A stretch of DNA of 64,000 nt from Gammaproteobacteria bacterium (GTDB taxonomy: Bacteria; Pseudomonadota; Gammaproteobacteria; Steroidobacterales; Foliamicaceae), in the NCBI GenBank assembly GCA_009838035.1, contig VXSK01000004.1:62001-126000 (forward strand). The letters run 5' to 3'. The notes below the pieces were generated by a model that had not been told where the DNA came from, did not search any database, and saw only the letters and a list, made by a program, of their open reading frames with translations. This document shows, piece by piece, positions 6,954 through 48,431 of the stretch. How positions within the stretch are numbered: the first letter of the stretch is position 1; the number at the start of each line of letters is the position of its first letter. The position numbers were made by a program, and so were the translations under genes.

Positions 6954-7070
6954 AACGTCCCCCAATGGTGTAGTCCTTGCCCAAAAAAACGGCGCGGCCC
7001 CAACGCGCCAATCGAGCGGGCGTGCGAAACACGCCTCCCTATAATATAGTCCAAACCGATTGGGGACTCC
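6954..7070. promoter_or_regulatory. Divergent promoter region between the two operons
   Basis: The 117 bases between the divergent start codons contain a perfect rightward -10 hexamer TATAAT at 7040-7045 with no good -35 at the right distance. Just upstream is an inverted repeat, GGCGTG-cgaaa-CACGCC (7019-7035), where an activator or repressor could bind. Both genes have a similar ATTGGGG leader directly before the start codon: 7058 onward on the plus strand and 6966 downward on the minus strand. The arrangement suggests shared control of both operons. No regulator gene is present in the cluster. Confidence 0.55.
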
Positions 7071-8159
7071 ATGACAGCGACTCTGGAAATTGAGCGCAGC
7101 CGCGCGGAGCAGGCGCGGCTGGATTTTGTAGGGGGCCTGATGGCGTTCAATTCGACCGGCTTCGGACCCGCCATGGGCGCCTGGTACCGCGAAAACGAGA
7201 ACCGGCTTCAGGACCCTTCGGACATACGCGAAGTGGGCGGGCTGATGGAGCAGGGCAATGCCTACCGCTTCGGCGCCTTTTTCGAGCGCCATAACCACGC
7301 ACAGATGTTCCGGGCCATCCTGGACATCCTCAAACGCCAGGGCGAAAACGTGCGGGCCTGGCTGGACGACTTCAACGGGGCGGGCGCATTGGGATGCCTG
7401 GAGCTGAATCCGGAACTGGAAACGCCCCGTTATTACCGCAAGATCGAAATCCATACGCAGCCGGGCAACTACCACGCTGAGTTCGCCGGATTCCTCTACC
7501 ACTGGATGATCAGCCCGTTTCTGGTGGGGCGCGACGACGGCGACGAGATGGGCTGGAACCTGGCCCGAGCGGTGCCCGGGGGCGACTACCGGCGCATCCT
7601 GGACCTGGGTTGCGGCGTCGGCAAGAGCACTTTTCCCTATTGCGAGCTCCACCCGGATGCAGAAGTGGTGGGTTTGGACTACTCCGCCTCCATGCTCAAG
7701 TACGGCCACAAGCTGGCCGAGTCACGCGGGCACAAGGTTCATTTCACCCAGCGGCTGGCCGAGGATACCGGCTATCCGGACGGGAGTTTCGACGTGGTCA
7801 GCGCGGTGTGGCTGTTTCACGAACTGCCGGGTAAGGTGCGCGCGCAGGTTGTGCGTGAGGCTCACCGGCTGCTTCGCCCGGGCGGAGTCTTCGCGATCAT
7901 GGAATCGCCGCCGTTCAAGGTGCTGCAGGAAGAGTACAGTCCGCTATCGGCGTTTCTGCTGGATTCCACCGGGCGGCGCATGGAAGATCCGTTCCTGCCG
8001 GGATTCCTGGCCGAAGACCGGGTGTGCATGTTCGAGGAAGGCGGTTTCAGTGAGGTCCGCGACGTACCGCTGCCCAATGAGCTGACCGGTTGGGGGTTCG
8101 GCGGGGAGTACTTCTTCGGCGCCTATCCCTGGTGGGCCACGATCGGAGTGCGGCCGTGA
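7071..8159 (+). CDS. Class I SAM-dependent methyltransferase
   Basis: A 362-residue protein. The C-terminal half is a Rossmann methyltransferase domain with motif I ILDLGCGVGKST (about 176-187), the acidic loop end VVGLDYS, then DGSFDVVSAVWLFHELP and the post-III LRPGGVFAIME segment. The N-terminal ~150 residues form an additional domain that I do not recognise. It transfers a methyl group from SAM to an unknown small molecule. A GGGGA Shine-Dalgarno precedes the ATG. It opens the rightward operon and overlaps the next gene by GTGA. Confidence 0.85.
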   Translation: MTATLEIERSRAEQARLDFVGGLMAFNSTGFGPAMGAWYRENENRLQDPSDIREVGGLMEQGNAYRFGAFFERHNHAQMFRAILDILKRQGENVRAWLDDFNGAGALGCLELNPELETPRYYRKIEIHTQPGNYHAEFAGFLYHWMISPFLVGRDDGDEMGWNLARAVPGGDYRRILDLGCGVGKSTFPYCELHPDAEVVGLDYSASMLKYGHKLAESRGHKVHFTQRLAEDTGYPDGSFDVVSAVWLFHELPGKVRAQVVREAHRLLRPGGVFAIMESPPFKVLQEEYSPLSAFLLDSTGRRMEDPFLPGFLAEDRVCMFEEGGFSEVRDVPLPNELTGWGFGGEYFFGAYPWWATIGVRP

Positions 8160-8542
8160 GCGACGACCTTGAACGCCGGTTCCAGGCTATCACCCACAAG
8201 TTGTGGGGCGACGAAATGGGCGAGGAAATCTATCAATGGATCGTTACCAGCCGCCCTCCGGCGTTTCATGCCAAGTTGCGCGAGGTCATGGTGCCGATCT
8301 GGGAGATGGACCGTGTTGACCTGCGCACGAAGATCCTGTGCAGCATCGCGATGTTCACGGCCACGCACAAACAGGAAGTGGAATTCTTCATGAAGATGGC
8401 GGCCCATCACGAAATTCCCCGGGAAGAAGTAGAGGAAATCCTGTTGCTGGCGGGTCTGGAGTTCGGTTTTCCTGCCGCAGAGATGGCCATCGACATCCTG
8501 ACCCGCGTGTATTCCGAGCACGAAGCCCGTTTCGGCGAGTGA
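8156..8542 (+). CDS. Carboxymuconolactone decarboxylase (CMD)-family protein A
   Basis: A 128-residue helical protein matching the CMD fold, with LRTKILCSIAMFTATH, then IPREEVEEILLLAGLEFGFPAA, the conserved second half of the family. It has no CxxC peroxidase motif of the AhpD type, so it is closer to the decarboxylase or unassigned subgroup. The GTG start at 8156 overlaps the methyltransferase stop (GTGA). Upstream in-frame codons lie inside the methyltransferase gene. A second CMD protein (13347) closes the operon. CMD enzymes act on ring-opened aromatic lactones, but the substrate here is unknown. Confidence 0.75.
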   Translation: MSDDLERRFQAITHKLWGDEMGEEIYQWIVTSRPPAFHAKLREVMVPIWEMDRVDLRTKILCSIAMFTATHKQEVEFFMKMAAHHEIPREEVEEILLLAGLEFGFPAAEMAIDILTRVYSEHEARFGE

Positions 8543-8579
8543 AAACCGCCCGCCAATCCGTTTACGGCGCTTCGATCTC

Positions 8580-8689
8580 GCTCTTCGTCATGCCCCTTCC
8601 TCCGGGATACGCCGGCAAGCACATCCCTGTGGGCTCGGCGTCGGCATCCTGCCTCCGACGCTCCCGGACGAAGGGGCATGACGAAGAGC
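8580..8689. repeat. Long hairpin repeat, copy 1
   Basis: An imperfect palindrome: arm 8580-8607 pairs with arm 8662-8689 at 27 of 28 positions, separated by a 54-base loop. The outer arm begins GCTCTTCGTCATGCCCCTTC. A second copy with different but similarly self-complementary arms lies at 47511-47609, and the inner parts of the two copies share GGGAGCG followed by a GGA-GCAGGA block when one is reversed. This points to a dispersed REP/MITE-like family. It occupies the gap between CMD protein A and bicupin B. Confidence 0.75.
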
Positions 8690-8716
8690 CGAAGTTTCGA
8701 TGAGCCGGATTCTCCA

Positions 8717-9559
8717 ATGACGCGTCCGCGAGTTGAGTTTCTGCGTCTGGACGGCGTGGCGCTGACGCCGTCGGCGGCGCCTGCTATCGGGCATGGATTG
8801 CGGGCGGCCGTTCTCAGTGCCCAGCCGGGCGACTCGGGAGCCAGGAGCCTGCTGGTGCGGGCCGAGCCGTACTGGTGTTCTCACGACGGTGGGGTGCTGG
8901 AAGGCGATCTCGAGATTCTCCTCCTTGAAGGCGACCTCAGGCTGGGCGAATGCGAATTTGCGCGCGGCAGTTACGCATTCCTCCCCCGGGGGCTAGCCGT
9001 CGCCGGCGCCGAAACCCGCAGCGGGTTCGCGGCGCTGTGGATGAGCGAGGGCCGTGACGGGCTCTCGCAGGACTCCGAACCTGCGGCGGCGTATCGGGAG
9101 GAGCGAAAGACCGGGCCGCTGGATGTTAACGCCATTGCGTGGCAGCCTGTGCCCGATTTTCCCGGCCGAACGAGCGAGGAGGCGGGGTCCGGCCTGAAGG
9201 TGCGCAGGCTGCGCACCGATCCGGACACCGGCGCCTACACGCTGATGACGCGTCAGGCGCCGGGATGGTGCGATCCGAGGCTGGAGGCGCACGAAACCTG
9301 GGAGGAACTGGTGCTGTTGCAGGGCGATTACCTGATGGGCGAGACCGGCATGATCACTTCGGGGGCCTATATCTTCCGTCCGGGCGAGAAACCGCACGGT
9401 CCGCAGGCCACGCGCGGCGGTTGCGTGTGGTTCTGCCGCGGCGAGAAGGAAATCGACTTCCGGTTCACCGAGCCGGAGTGGAGCGCGCCGCGCTGCCGTC
9501 AGTACCTGGCGCAGGCCGCGCCGGATCCGCGACCGCAGCTATGGGGAAACTGGAGCTGA
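8717..9559 (+). CDS. Bicupin protein B
   Basis: A 280-residue protein with two cupin domains. The C-terminal one has the probable metal site: His in LEAHETWEELVLLQGDYLMG, the two following Glu, and His in GEKPHGPQ. The N-terminal one (EGDLEILLLEGDLRLGE, SYAFLPRG) lacks clear His ligands. It resembles the bicupins at 3050 and 11253. I start it at ATG 8717; the in-frame ATG at 8678 lies within the hairpin repeat and has no spaced ribosome binding site. It is the third gene of the rightward operon and probably cytoplasmic. The reaction is unknown. Confidence 0.78.
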   Translation: MTRPRVEFLRLDGVALTPSAAPAIGHGLRAAVLSAQPGDSGARSLLVRAEPYWCSHDGGVLEGDLEILLLEGDLRLGECEFARGSYAFLPRGLAVAGAETRSGFAALWMSEGRDGLSQDSEPAAAYREERKTGPLDVNAIAWQPVPDFPGRTSEEAGSGLKVRRLRTDPDTGAYTLMTRQAPGWCDPRLEAHETWEELVLLQGDYLMGETGMITSGAYIFRPGEKPHGPQATRGGCVWFCRGEKEIDFRFTEPEWSAPRCRQYLAQAAPDPRPQLWGNWS

Positions 9560-9561
9560 CC

Positions 9562-10386
9562 GTGGCCGGATACACGCGCCCCTTCACCCCCAACGGCGAG
9601 GCCTCCATGCTGGAGCCGCTGCCGTGGCGCTTTGCCGGCAACCTGCTGCTGTTCCATTTCCGGACCGATCCCGATGCGATCGCCGCGTACCTCCCGGAGC
9701 CGCTTACACCTTCCGATCCGCCCGATGAAGCCTATGTGTGGAGTCCCCATCTTCGCTGTTATCCCGAGGGCGTGGAGCCCGAGGACTGGCCGGCTGCGCG
9801 CAGCCATTACGACGTTGCGGTGATCGGCCTGCCCTGCAGGCTGCACGGCGAGCGCACGATGTTCTCCACCTTCCAGTGGTGCAACCGCGACTGGCTGGTG
9901 CTGCTGAGCTGGTTCCTGGGCGCCTGTTCCAAGCAGGCGGAGATCGAAACCAGCGGCCTGCATCCCCTGCTGCCCGGCATGACTCAGGACGGCGGTGTGG
10001 GCACGCGGCTCAAGCGCGTCGTCAGCCGTCACGGCGAGGCCGTGATGCGAATGGAGTTCTCGCCGCAGCGCGTGATCGACGTGACGGAACTCGAGTTCTA
10101 CACGCGCAACCTGCCGCTCACCTGCATGCGCCATGTTCCCGATTGCCACGTGCCGCCCATGGGCAGGCCTCTTGTGCATGACCTCACGCAGATGGTGATG
10201 AGCGGGCTTCAGCAGGGTGAGACGCTGGCCGGCGAAGGGTCGCTGGAGTTCTGTCGGGCCGACAACGAGGAACTGATGCCGCTGGCGCCCAAGGAAGTGC
10301 TGGGCGCATACTGGATGCCGATGGGGTTCATGCTGGACGGGGTGCGGATCGTGCATCAGTACGATGCGGCGACCTCTCCGCAATAG
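9562..10386 (+). CDS. Acetoacetate decarboxylase-like protein
   Basis: A 274-residue protein with the ADC-superfamily outline: LLFHFRTDPDAIAAYLPEPL near the start, AYVW, then the central FLGACSKQAEIETSG block, and a C-terminal LGAYWMPMGFMLDG. In true acetoacetate decarboxylase the central block is G-[YF]-P-K-K, where the first Lys forms the Schiff base; the hand alignment puts Ser at that place and keeps only the second Lys. It may therefore be a non-decarboxylating relative. The GTG at 9562 has GGAG six bases upstream; an in-frame ATG at 9541 would overlap bicupin B by 19 bases. Confidence 0.7.
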   Translation: MAGYTRPFTPNGEASMLEPLPWRFAGNLLLFHFRTDPDAIAAYLPEPLTPSDPPDEAYVWSPHLRCYPEGVEPEDWPAARSHYDVAVIGLPCRLHGERTMFSTFQWCNRDWLVLLSWFLGACSKQAEIETSGLHPLLPGMTQDGGVGTRLKRVVSRHGEAVMRMEFSPQRVIDVTELEFYTRNLPLTCMRHVPDCHVPPMGRPLVHDLTQMVMSGLQQGETLAGEGSLEFCRADNEELMPLAPKEVLGAYWMPMGFMLDGVRIVHQYDAATSPQ

Positions 10387-10396
10387 GGAGGAAGGC

Positions 10397-11230
10397 ATGC
10401 CGAAAGTACGCGTGGACGGCGCCAATCTGTGGTACGGGGTTCGCGGCGAGGGCGAGCCACCACTCACGCTGATCGGTGGTTTTGCGCTGGTGGACAAGCA
10501 GTTCGAATTCTGCGAGCCGTACCTCACCCCGCATCACCGCATCCTGCAATGGCACTACCGCGGTGTGGGGAAGTCGGACTGGACGCAATCCGAGCCGTAC
10601 TCGGTGGAACGATGGGTGGACGACCTGGCCGCGATCCTGGATGCCGCCGGGATCGAACGCACGGCGCTCTGGTGCACTTCCACGGGTTCGTCGATCGGGC
10701 TGCGCTTCGCAGCCAAGTACCCCGAGCGCATGCACGCGTTGATCGCCTATCCGTTCATCCGCGTGGACGACACCTGGCGCAACATCTACGAGGCTTCCTG
10801 GTGGGTGGGCAGGGTGTTCGGTATCGAGCAGCTATCGCGCCTCTATGCGGGTGTGGTGCTGCCGGCCGACGTGCTGTATTCCGAAGAGGGCATCAAGTAC
10901 GAGCGCTGGGCCAAGAAGCAATACGCCGCCAACGTCAACATGGCCACCCTGAAGGCCGTACTGGACGCATACGCGAACGTCGACCTGACCGCCGACATCC
11001 GCAATATCGAATGCCCGACGCTCCTGCTGATGGGCGACGACAGCGCCCTGAACGAGAACGAGCGCATGGAATCGGCCAGCCACGACACGCTGATGCGCGA
11101 GTTCCTCGTCATCAAGTCGGATGTGGACAAAGCCGAGATCGCCGGAGCGGGATCGACGTATTGCATGATTACCAAGCCCCGCGAGTGTTGCGAGGCCGTC
11201 GTGGCCTGGCTCGCCGGGCTGCAGGACTGA
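10397..11230 (+). CDS. Alpha/beta-hydrolase fold protein lacking the usual catalytic His
   Basis: A 277-residue alpha/beta-hydrolase: the LIGGFALVDKQFEF oxyanion region, LQWHYRGVGKSD, a nucleophile elbow CTSTG followed by AAKYPER, and the acid-containing LLLMGDDSA strand. Where the family has GxGH near the C-terminus it reads GAGSTYCMITKP, so the catalytic His is Ser. No other His lies nearby. It may act as a non-hydrolytic member or use another base. A strong GGGAGGAAGG precedes the ATG at 10397; the in-frame upstream ATG overlaps the ADC-like gene. It is the middle gene of the rightward operon. Confidence 0.8.
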   Translation: MPKVRVDGANLWYGVRGEGEPPLTLIGGFALVDKQFEFCEPYLTPHHRILQWHYRGVGKSDWTQSEPYSVERWVDDLAAILDAAGIERTALWCTSTGSSIGLRFAAKYPERMHALIAYPFIRVDDTWRNIYEASWWVGRVFGIEQLSRLYAGVVLPADVLYSEEGIKYERWAKKQYAANVNMATLKAVLDAYANVDLTADIRNIECPTLLLMGDDSALNENERMESASHDTLMREFLVIKSDVDKAEIAGAGSTYCMITKPRECCEAVVAWLAGLQD

Positions 11231-11252
11231 TTGAGAACGGAGGAGCAACGCA

Positions 11253-12116
11253 ATGCCGATGCGCAGAGAAGACTGCCTGGACGTAAGCGCCGTCGAACCG
11301 CGGCCGGTCAATGCCGGGTACACGCCCGGCGCCGTGGCCCGCAACCTGAGCACCGAGAGCAAGACCGGAGGCGAACACCTGGTCATGGAGTTGCCCGCGG
11401 GCTGGTCCCTCCCGCGCGGCCGAAACGAGGCCGACGTGGATCTCTACGTGCTGGAAGGGGCACTGGAGGTTGGCGGCGAATCCTGGATGCAGGGCTGTTA
11501 CGGCTATTTCCCGGCCGGCATGGCCTGGGGGCCGGTCCGCACGTCCGGCGGCTGCCGGCTCCTGCTTTTCACCAGCCGGCCGCTGGCCTTCAAGGAGGCG
11601 GGCGACTCGCTGGCGGATGCGCACGTCGACCGGCATATCGGACGCACCAACACCTGGCACCTGCCATGGGTCGATCCGATGGCGGACATCGTCAAGCGCT
11701 CCACCTGGAAAGACCCGAAAACCGGCCAGGAGGCCCGCCCGCCCGGCGTCCTGACCAAGGGCCTGCGCAAGGACGACGGCACAAAGGAGGTGATCGCCCT
11801 GACCGCGCTGGCGCCGGGTTTCGTCGACCCGGGCACCGAGCACCATCCGCACAATGAATGCCTGTACCTGATCGCCGGCGATTGCTACATCGGCTACACC
11901 TTCGATCACAGGCGCGAGGACGTGAAGGAAGACCTCGTGCTGACCAGGGACCATTACATCGGCCGCCCGCCGGGCGTGCGTCACGGCCCGGTGTGCAGCA
12001 TCAGCGGCGCGTTCTGGCTGATCTACCTGGCGGACTACTACACGGGCATCTTCGGCAAGGTGGACGACTGGGAAGAACGAGTCAACAGCTACTTCGCCAG
12101 CGCTTCCTTTCGCTGA
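11253..12116 (+). CDS. Bicupin protein C
   Basis: A 287-residue bicupin. The N-terminal barrel (VDLYVLEGALEVGGESW, YGYFPAGMAWGPV) lacks a full His set; the C-terminal barrel has EHHPHNECLYLIAGD and PPGVRHGPV, giving the HxH...E...H metal pattern most clearly of the three bicupins in the cluster. GGAGGAG lies 7 bases before the ATG at 11253. The gene is 22 bases after the alpha/beta-hydrolase and 15 before the second M24 gene. The bicupin-M24 pairing repeats the order at 3859-1854, which suggests that the two act on the same substrate. Confidence 0.8.
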   Translation: MPMRREDCLDVSAVEPRPVNAGYTPGAVARNLSTESKTGGEHLVMELPAGWSLPRGRNEADVDLYVLEGALEVGGESWMQGCYGYFPAGMAWGPVRTSGGCRLLLFTSRPLAFKEAGDSLADAHVDRHIGRTNTWHLPWVDPMADIVKRSTWKDPKTGQEARPPGVLTKGLRKDDGTKEVIALTALAPGFVDPGTEHHPHNECLYLIAGDCYIGYTFDHRREDVKEDLVLTRDHYIGRPPGVRHGPVCSISGAFWLIYLADYYTGIFGKVDDWEERVNSYFASASFR

Positions 12117-15360: not shown

Positions 15361-15393
15361 TTGACAGAATGTAGCCTGCAGGCTACATTCTGT
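15361..15393 (+). promoter_or_regulatory. higBA promoter overlapped by a perfect 30-bp palindrome
   Basis: TTGACA (15361-15366) and TACATT (15384-15389) are spaced by 17 bases. A perfect palindrome, centred on CTGCAG and reading outward to ACAGAATG at each end, covers 15364-15393, that is, the whole spacer and -10. It is the expected kind of autoregulatory operator for a toxin-antitoxin pair. Transcription would start at about 15396, the first base of the toxin ATG, so the mRNA may be leaderless. Confidence 0.75.
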
Positions 15394-47069: not shown

Positions 47070-47490
47070 GATCCGCTCGGCCCGGCCGGCCTGGGCCGCC
47101 CCGGCGCTCGCAACCGGACTTCTGCTTGCCGTTGTCGCGGTGCTGATCGCCGACCTGCCGTTCTGGCTCCGTATTGTCGTGGCCCTGAGTGTCTGCGTGG
47201 GAGCCGCACTGGAATGGCGTCGCGCCCGGCGAGGAGCGATTGCGCCCGGAATCGAAGCCGTCTGGCTTACGCCGCCGGGCGACTGGCGACTGGTGCTGGA
47301 TACCGGCGAAATGGACAAGGCCGAATTGCTGCATCGGCGTGGTTTCGTTTCGCGCCGCCTGGTCGGACTTACGTTGCGCCGCGTCGCTGCCGGGCGGCGC
47401 CGGAATTCAGCGGTGCGGGTATGGCTGACTCCCGCAATGCTCGGCGAACGGGACTGGCGGCTGTTACAGGTTCGGCTGCGAAATCCATAG
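47044..47490 (+). CDS. YgfX/CptA-like inner-membrane protein
   Basis: A 148-residue protein with two adjacent membrane segments (about residues 15-55) and a C-terminal soluble part with GDWRLVLDTGE and VWLTPAMLGERDWRLLQVRLR, as in YgfX. In E. coli ygfX follows ygfY (sdhE) and the pair has been described as CptAB, with effects on MreB/FtsZ. The start is a TTG at 47044, giving a 26-base overlap with sdhE. Confidence 0.7.
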   Translation: MSGFAVTVEIRSARPAWAAPALATGLLLAVVAVLIADLPFWLRIVVALSVCVGAALEWRRARRGAIAPGIEAVWLTPPGDWRLVLDTGEMDKAELLHRRGFVSRRLVGLTLRRVAAGRRRNSAVRVWLTPAMLGERDWRLLQVRLRNP

Positions 47491-47510: not shown

Positions 47511-47609
47511 GCCCTTTGTTCGTCCCCCTCCTCGTGGGAGCGTTGGAGCAGGACAGCGAGAATCGAGCCAGGATGGCGTCTCCGACGAGGAGGGGGACGA
47601 ACAAAGGGC
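47511..47609. repeat. Long hairpin repeat, copy 2
   Basis: Arms 47511-47539 and 47581-47609 pair at 28 of 29 positions; the outer 25 are perfect. The loop is 41 bases. The arm starts GCCCTTTGTTCGTCCCCCTC, related to but different from copy 1 at 8580, and the inner GGGAGCG then GGA-GCAGGA block is shared. It lies in the 170-base gap before lepB and could also act as a transcript-end stem. Confidence 0.75.
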
Positions 47610-47660: not shown

Positions 47661-48431
47661 ATGGAAATCTGGCTGGTTGGAATTACGGGCCTGGCGCTGG
47701 TGCTGTGGGCGCTCGACCGCTTCATCCTGACACCGCGCGCCAGGCGCGCTGCCGGGGAGGGCGGAGAACTGCCGCCCAAGTCGAAGATTTTCGAATACGC
47801 CGCGGCCTTTCTCCCGGTACTCCTGGTGGTGCTCTGCATTCGCTCCTTCCTGTACGAGCCCTACCGCATTCCGTCGGGCTCGATGCAGCCGACCCTTGAA
47901 ATCGGCGATTTCATTTTCGTCAACAAGTTCGCGTACGGACTTCGTTTGCCGGTCACCAACACCACCGTTGTCGAGTTGGGAACGCCGGAACGTGGAGACG
48001 TCGTGGTGTTCAAGCTGCCCACCGACCCGCGGGCCAACTTCATCAAGCGCATGGTCGGGCTGCCCGGGGACGTCGTCGAGTATCGCGGCAAGCGGCTTCG
48101 CATCAACGGCGAGCCCGTCGAGCTGAGCGAGCCCGTTCCACTGAACCCTTCGGCGCCGTACTCCGTGCGCAAGGCGGTGGAGGTTCTGGGTCAGGCCAGT
48201 CATGACGTCCATTTCATGCCCGGGCGGATCAGCAGGGAAGGCACGTTCACGGTTCCCGAGGGGCATTACTTCGTTATGGGGGACAACCGGGACAACAGCA
48301 GGGACAGCCGTTACCAGGGAGTCGGCTTTATTCCGGACGATCGCCTTGTAGGCCGCGCCGAGCGCATTTGGTTCAATTGGGAGTTTGGCAGCATGCCCGA
48401 ATGGGGCCGGATCGGCGACGCGATCAATTGA
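47661..48431 (+). CDS. lepB: Signal peptidase I
   Basis: A 256-residue leader peptidase: two N-terminal membrane segments, catalytic Ser in YRIPSGSMQPTLEIGDFIFV, catalytic Lys in FIKRMVGLPGD, and the conserved GHYFVMGDNRDNSRDSR box. It removes signal peptides of exported proteins at the periplasmic face. It is shorter than the E. coli enzyme because of a smaller domain II insertion. It overlaps rnc by TTGA. Confidence 0.96.
   Translation: MEIWLVGITGLALVLWALDRFILTPRARRAAGEGGELPPKSKIFEYAAAFLPVLLVVLCIRSFLYEPYRIPSGSMQPTLEIGDFIFVNKFAYGLRLPVTNTTVVELGTPERGDVVVFKLPTDPRANFIKRMVGLPGDVVEYRGKRLRINGEPVELSEPVPLNPSAPYSVRKAVEVLGQASHDVHFMPGRISREGTFTVPEGHYFVMGDNRDNSRDSRYQGVGFIPDDRLVGRAERIWFNWEFGSMPEWGRIGDAIN

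Follow-up and report, generated by a model that had tools for sequence, protein, structure and literature searches.

How can the two arms of a long hairpin change from copy to copy and still match each other? The question is raised by two palindromes of about 100 bases in the window, as we call the whole 64,000-nucleotide stretch of gammaproteobacterial DNA that was analyzed. Our answer, to which we give a probability of about one half, is that they belong to a non-autonomous repeat in which folding of the GGATG strand as single-stranded DNA is selected at mobilisation and the arms are renewed by template switching. The parts of the two hairpins are listed below by window coordinates, with P1 for the long outer stem and P2 and P3 for the hairpins of the core.

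8567 to 8579, no strand assigned: asymmetric outer flank, GCGCTTCGATCTC (minus strand GAGATCGAAGCGC), repeated beside several own-genus copies.
8580 to 8607, plus strand: left arm of hairpin 1, with one C.C mismatch against the right arm.
8608 to 8661, minus strand: type A core of hairpin 1, with copies in its own genome and genus (alignment A1).
8611 to 8634, no strand assigned: P2 hairpin, with CACA-TCCC-TGTG as plus-strand inner stem (minus strand CACAGGGATGTG), from the covariation alignment.
8640 to 8659, no strand assigned: P3 hairpin, inner stem GGCA-TCC-TGCC on the plus strand, from the covariation alignment.
8662 to 8689, plus strand: right arm of hairpin 1, pairing with the left arm.
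47511 to 47540, plus strand: left arm of hairpin 2, pairing with the right arm.
47541 to 47579, plus strand: type C core of hairpin 2, a shorter variant whose GGATG strand is the plus strand, with copies in the genus.
47580 to 47609, plus strand: right arm of hairpin 2, pairing with the left arm.

Hairpin 1 pairs at 27 of 28 positions (8580-8607 with 8662-8689) around a 54-nt centre, and hairpin 2 at 29 of 30 (47511-47540 with 47580-47609) around a 39-nt centre. Their folding z-scores were -8.70 and -9.31, with 0 of 200 shuffles as good in either case. Across the 64-kb window, only these two reached an arm score of 17 or more (25 at 8580, 27 at 47511), and none of 30 dinucleotide shuffles of the window scored above 15. 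The two strong palindromes reported in an earlier note on this DNA are therefore borne out, both lying far beyond chance, and its remark that the outer arms differ and are each self-complementary is correct for both and general in the family. It had also called the inner sequences related, which is right only in part. Both cores do start with ACGCC and carry an ATCC hairpin loop on the CATCC strand, but one is of type A and the other of the shorter type C, whose putative homology to type A is argued from architecture. The type C core at 47511 has close copies in the genus, with similar arms.

An ORF ends at 8542, and hairpin 1 starts 38 bases further on; hairpin 2 has an ORF that ends at 47490 on one side and a signal peptidase I gene (47661-48431) on the other. 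Outside the palindrome, GATCGAAGCG or near variants adjoin own-genus copies, and we infer that the flank at 8567-8579 is part of the inserted unit. The sole Rfam match in the window was a tRNA, matches around 8580-8689 falling far below gathering scores, and a plasmid search with window positions 7000-12000 gave no match. The window also holds, outside the hairpin family, a perfect 30-bp palindrome at 15364-15393 made of two 15-bp arms without a spacer.

We then looked at how far the family extends. With hairpin 1 as query, blastn gave 33 matches in the own genome at E <= 10, among them 16 distinct places at E < 1e-4, query included; these copies have the middle in common, and their arms mostly differ yet are self-complementary. 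A covariance model of the core and ten arm pairs, the genome-wide search that the earlier note had proposed, found 47 matches in the own genome, so further copies do exist. The model was positive in 17 of 58 genomes and 6 of 25 genera, including all nine genomes of the genus, with the best 85 candidates scored per genome and the counts for two genomes to be read as "at least". Two of the six genera had just two matches, in one genome each and some at contig ends, which may be contamination. A search with a 69-base core matched 9/9 genus genomes and, weakly (E 0.009), 1 of 49 others.

Among named genomes, the pattern CATCCMTGN{2,3}GCTYGNNNNCGNCATCCMTGNC matched at least 120 stretches. Among the matches listed (80), titles were gammaproteobacterial (Stenotrophomonas, Xanthomonas, Marinobacter, Shewanella, Alteromonas, Cellvibrio, Alcanivorax, Pseudomonas and others) except for two Desulfuromonadales, whose matches came without arms, and one Bacillus subtilis. 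The latter, on a contig labelled Bacillus subtilis SK7B5 (L190), is a typical gammaproteobacterial copy and likely a contamination. Of 124 pattern matches (L160-279), 94 had an arm score of at least 12, 18 scored 6-11 and 12 scored lower; the 92 elements with distinct arms had arms of 20-49 bp (mean 27.7). Several drafts carry copies at contig ends (L011, L013, L015, G003:C44:1-70, G027:C9:21-92, G040:C10:8-79), and hairpins may therefore break short-read assemblies and lower copy counts.

The layout common to the family is a two-hairpin core of about 40-55 nt with CATCC-type loops, set within self-complementary arms (mean 28 bp) whose sequence varies between subfamilies with self-complementarity kept. 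The loops of P2 and P3 mostly contain GGA on one strand. In 52 aligned sequences, whose P2 and P3 rows were not selected for pairing, 89.6% of P2 and P3 alignment cells were paired, and their covariation was 0.380 compared with 0.112 (sd 0.012) after shuffling and at most 0.084 after sliding. With P1 added the values were 0.482 against 0.147, the P1 contribution being ascertained because rows had been kept for their paired arms. Two-sided changes occurred in 14/52 and 18/52 sequences at the outer two pairs of the P2 inner stem (columns 23-34 and 24-33) and in 18/52, 21/52 and 22/52 at P3 columns 42-61, 43-60 and 47-56; in 46 of 52 rows the search pattern itself set the CATCC.TG loop and loop-closing columns, whose invariance there is by construction. 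Of the own-genus hairpin sites found by pairing alone, 47 of 60 carried two or more TCC.TG-type loops on the same strand. Some cores are variants in which a P3 hairpin of greater length (GTGGGCGCC..GGCGCCCAC type) replaces the ATCCCT loop (L060:19567-19693, L085:19688-19815, L037), and one copy in L291 (G077) has about 80 bp of other sequence within its P2 hairpin.

The copies are mobile and were inserted as a unit, because filled and empty sites can be compared. G000 and G005 carry hairpin 1 at its site, which is empty in G001, G002, G004, G006, G007 and G008 (G003 has no aligned flanks there), and further empty sites were seen at other copies when the genus genomes were compared. The own-genus pool comprised 1.67 Mb, largely picked around copies, in which 101 hairpins reduced to 60 sites. 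Together with the 47 model matches, the filled and empty sites uphold the earlier description of a multi-copy mobile family. At one site (L065, 17841), G001 and G007 retain remnants made up of the right half alone, the left arm having been lost along with most of the core. We also considered that the arms might be copied from the host flank at insertion, and rejected this: the empty sites that were read hold neither arm, save GATT at one, and the arms therefore arrive with the unit.

Insertion as a unit, filled and empty sites and inverted pairs would all suit a MITE moved by a DDE transposase, its terminal inverted repeats being the arms. We consider this unlikely: arms that differ from one subfamily to the next leave no common terminal repeat to be read, and the flanks at filled and empty sites have diverged too far for a target duplication to be defined.

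The inverted pairs are frequent. Neighbouring copies within 250 bp were arranged + - in 40 of 44 cases, which are not mutually independent and include regions L282 and L283, fetched for holding close pairs; many other copies are single. Multiple structured copies in inverted pairs are what a REP/REPIN system moved by an IS200-like TnpA-REP would produce, and a REP-associated transposase had been suggested in the earlier note. That suggestion fails on most counts, and we regard it as very improbable. The Y1 transposase (PF01797) was found in 0/9 genus genomes by a search whose control was positive in 5/14 known genomes. A GTAG foot is present in 4/50 own-genus and 4/91 named-genome copies and a CGTC foot in 0/50 and 1/91, and the stems of 20-49 bp exceed the 5-13 bp given for the GTAG/CGTC REP families in the portion of PMC3733652 available to us. 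No mobilising gene was found in searches for PF01797 and for reverse transcriptase (RVT_1). The latter was present in 4/9 genus genomes; no reverse-transcription enzyme is therefore universal, and reverse transcription was set aside as the mover. As candidates for an autonomous copy, we inspected the four + - pairs more than 250 bp apart and rejected them, since they enclose or flank ordinary-looking genes, among them, by reading, one like an alpha/beta hydrolase and one like TrpC.

Single copies lay between convergent genes in 40 cases and between divergent genes in 6, orthologues being counted repeatedly, and where one faced a gene 3' end the median distance was 23-135 bp. These counts leave out 17/83 and 21/82 single copies overlapping ORFs from a crude finder, as well as 12 and 4 that lay at edges. 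One inverted pair in Stenotrophomonas (L281:17853-18228, orthologues L285-L302) directly follows an apparent intrinsic terminator; another genome carries at this site altogether different arms that still pair with each other. A distinct short hairpin repeat (TGGGGTCAGATCCGTTTTCC) occupies the spacer between paired copies (L281:1643-1685, L280:16572-16614).

We further investigated how the arms change once an element is in place. Filled sites formed 17 clusters. In 14 of them two or more species carried, by reading, one and the same element, and each of these sites contributed one pair; three clusters were dropped whole, and nine members of others were dropped by eye as different elements. Among the 412 arm pairs of the 14 sites, 372 were unchanged, 28 had changed on both sides and were still paired, and 12 had changed on one side. 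At the divergence of the flanks, mutations arising independently would give 1.0 two-sided and 60.5 one-sided changes, and 1000 simulations never exceeded 5 two-sided or fell below 41 one-sided changes. The two-sided arm rate, 6.8%, compares with a mean flank divergence of 8.0%, which neutral divergence may exceed as the flanks are partly coding. Core changes affected 18 of 674 aligned positions. The 8580 site in G005 provides one two-sided arm change, from GCTC/GAGC to GCCC/GGGC.

In 3 of the 14 pairs, all three with two-sided arm changes, the core is inverted in place with the flank order kept; most of the genomes are draft assemblies, in which misassembly at a palindrome could fake an inversion but not a two-sided change. 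At one of these three sites the inverted core is also found in G004, a single-contig chromosome. Elsewhere the arms or the whole element were replaced and had not drifted. At one Stenotrophomonas site, two genomes with common flanks carry unrelated but self-complementary arms, which suggests replacement from other copies. Sharp unit boundaries could not be read from the Stenotrophomonas copies, as deletions and arm replacement blur them.

Arm homogenisation combined with spacer inversion is described as the footprint of polymerase template switching, at spacers of a few bases, in the portion of PMC8604942 that we could consult. A compensatory change accompanied by loop inversion is, according to the accessible text of PMC8794818, the strongest possible support for such an event and extremely rare. 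We infer that the arm homogenisation and in-place core inversion found here are a footprint of the same kind. Ordinary compensatory evolution, in which the structure is selected and two separate mutations restore each pair without template switching, would agree with the P2 and P3 covariation and with the strand bias reported below, both of which show selection on the fold. It is nevertheless rather unlikely. The two-sided rate is close to the flank rate, which speaks against slow selected compensation; one-sided intermediates are few (12 as against 28); and three sites have their core inverted in place. Because the arms change near the flank rate and the core flips, covariation alone is no proof of selection. 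The earlier inference from conserved pairing to selection on structure therefore does not follow from covariation, and draws separate support from the strand bias of mismatches.

This bias was measured in the 92 elements oriented by their cores, 30 matches with an arm score below 12 and two with duplicate arms being left out. Read on the CATCC strand, the arm mismatches were A.C 91, C.T 36, G.T 16, C.C 12, A.A 3, T.T 3, A.G 2 and G.G 1. On the GGATG strand the same mismatches read G.T 91, A.G 36, A.C 16, G.G 12, T.T 3, A.A 3, C.T 2 and C.C 1. The excess of A.C over G.T on the CATCC strand (91 to 16, P 6e-14; 49 to 7 by elements) held in all five groups having both types: Stenotrophomonas 16:3, Alteromonas 7:2, Xanthomonas/Pseudoxanthomonas 4:1 and two other large groups 26:7 and 36:3. 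It held whichever arm bore the A and stood at 67:10 more than 10 bp from the core. For C.T, 25 of 36 lay within 10 bp of the core, and beyond that distance the count was 11 against 1. The own genus leaned more weakly in the same direction (A.C 20, G.T 8, C.T 16, A.G 2, orthologues included), a count that drops 11 mismatches of unorientable elements (G.T 5, A.C 2, A.G 2, C.T 1, T.T 1).

To compare strands, we set these counts against energies of model hairpins in kcal/mol. With DNA energies the pairs G.T/A.C, A.G/C.T and G.G/C.C cost 2.8/4.7, 3.1/4.5 and 2.9/5.4; with RNA energies they cost 1.5/5.5, 5.6/5.6 and 4.1/6.7. The DNA values predict all three biases and the RNA values those of G.T and G.G but not of A.G/C.T; the DNA values do not predict the rarity of A.A (3.3) and T.T (3.1), with 3 cases each versus 36 of A.G. 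We lean towards the GGATG strand folding as single-stranded DNA, because the modelled DNA energies match the mismatch biases; for the type A core at 8608-8661 the folding strand would be the minus strand. No clear preference for the leading or lagging strand emerged from the 31 copies of S. maltophilia D457 (20) and X. hortorum (11), both complete genomes, with the origin assumed at base 1.

The C-ANGGAT-G loops of the paired hairpins look much like the consensus bound by CsrA/RsmE. The elements could accordingly act as RNA, with GGA loops of a transcribed GGATG strand binding CsrA/RsmA and the copies serving as dispersed sponges or 3'-UTR regulators. Such an RNA would carry two CANGGANG-type hairpin loops, to which the loops of the 47 of 60 sites above may correspond. 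Several observations fit: csrA is present in 9/9 genus genomes, the G.T/G.U excess on the GGATG strand is predicted by RNA energies as well, and gene 3' ends face single copies at the short median distances given above. The orientation of single copies with a facing 3' end within 150 bp does not follow suit, however, with 17 GGATG-sense against 29 CATCC-sense in named genomes (P 0.10) and 30 against 40 in the own genus (P 0.28). The 36 A.G to 2 C.T run against the RNA energies, and the core flips in place. On balance we consider an RNA element unlikely, if still worth weighing.

Returning to the non-autonomous repeat folded as single-stranded DNA, its steps might be as follows. The sequence of the P1 stem would be free, provided that the two arms match. 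The GGATG strand would fold at mobilisation, or at another step deciding copy survival, and a putative enzyme would read it through its loops. Once an element is inserted, template switching from one arm to the other during replication would homogenise the two and at times flip the core. The in-place events and the strand bias would be two separate processes. A bolder version, which we put forward tentatively and hold to be possible though not probable, is a new class of mobile DNA in Gammaproteobacteria: a folded single strand recognised via two GGA loops, lacking fixed termini since template switching renews its arms, and moved by an enzyme still to be found.

The hairpins form a widespread and apparently undescribed mobile repeat family. 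It was not found in the open-access literature by core-sequence words, where keyword searches brought up papers on REP, REPIN and template switching, and it may be in print in subscription journals, which lay mostly outside the search; the portions of PMC2267715, PMC3733652 and PMC12306157 available to us hold no description of it. As a natural record of bacterial template switching, the family has the advantage of an asymmetric 54-nt centre, in which inversions show that would go unseen in short loops. Covariation usually serves to prove structural selection, and the family shows that mutation by itself can feed it; a second test is provided by the strand bias of mismatches, which can tell which strand folds and perhaps whether as DNA or RNA. 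If the single-strand reading is true, a common and apparently unnamed repeat of Gammaproteobacteria has a mobilising enzyme yet to be found.

Among known systems, integron attC sites are sequence-poor palindromes of which one strand is folded as single-stranded DNA. The likeness to our family is one of analogy alone, in the folding of one strand; in our family it is the inner loops that are conserved and the outer arms that vary. REP/REPIN elements are likewise multi-copy palindromes in frequent inverted pairs for which single-strand folding has been proposed in mobilisation, but the present family differs in its stems of 20-49 bp, a GTAG/CGTC foot that is mostly absent, its two-hairpin core and the lack of any Y1 transposase match in the nine genus genomes. 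ERIC, RUP and other stem-loop repeats of about 100 bp are alike in size and folding potential; in the part of PMC2267715 accessible to us they are defined by a common sequence, whereas here the arms differ between subfamilies. The template-switched inverted repeats of yeast genes (PMC8604942) and RNA genes (PMC8794818), as far as the available text of both goes, also combine arm homogenisation with inversion of the spacer or loop. Their spacers measure a few bases; here the centre that is inverted measures 54-55 nt and is part of a mobile family.
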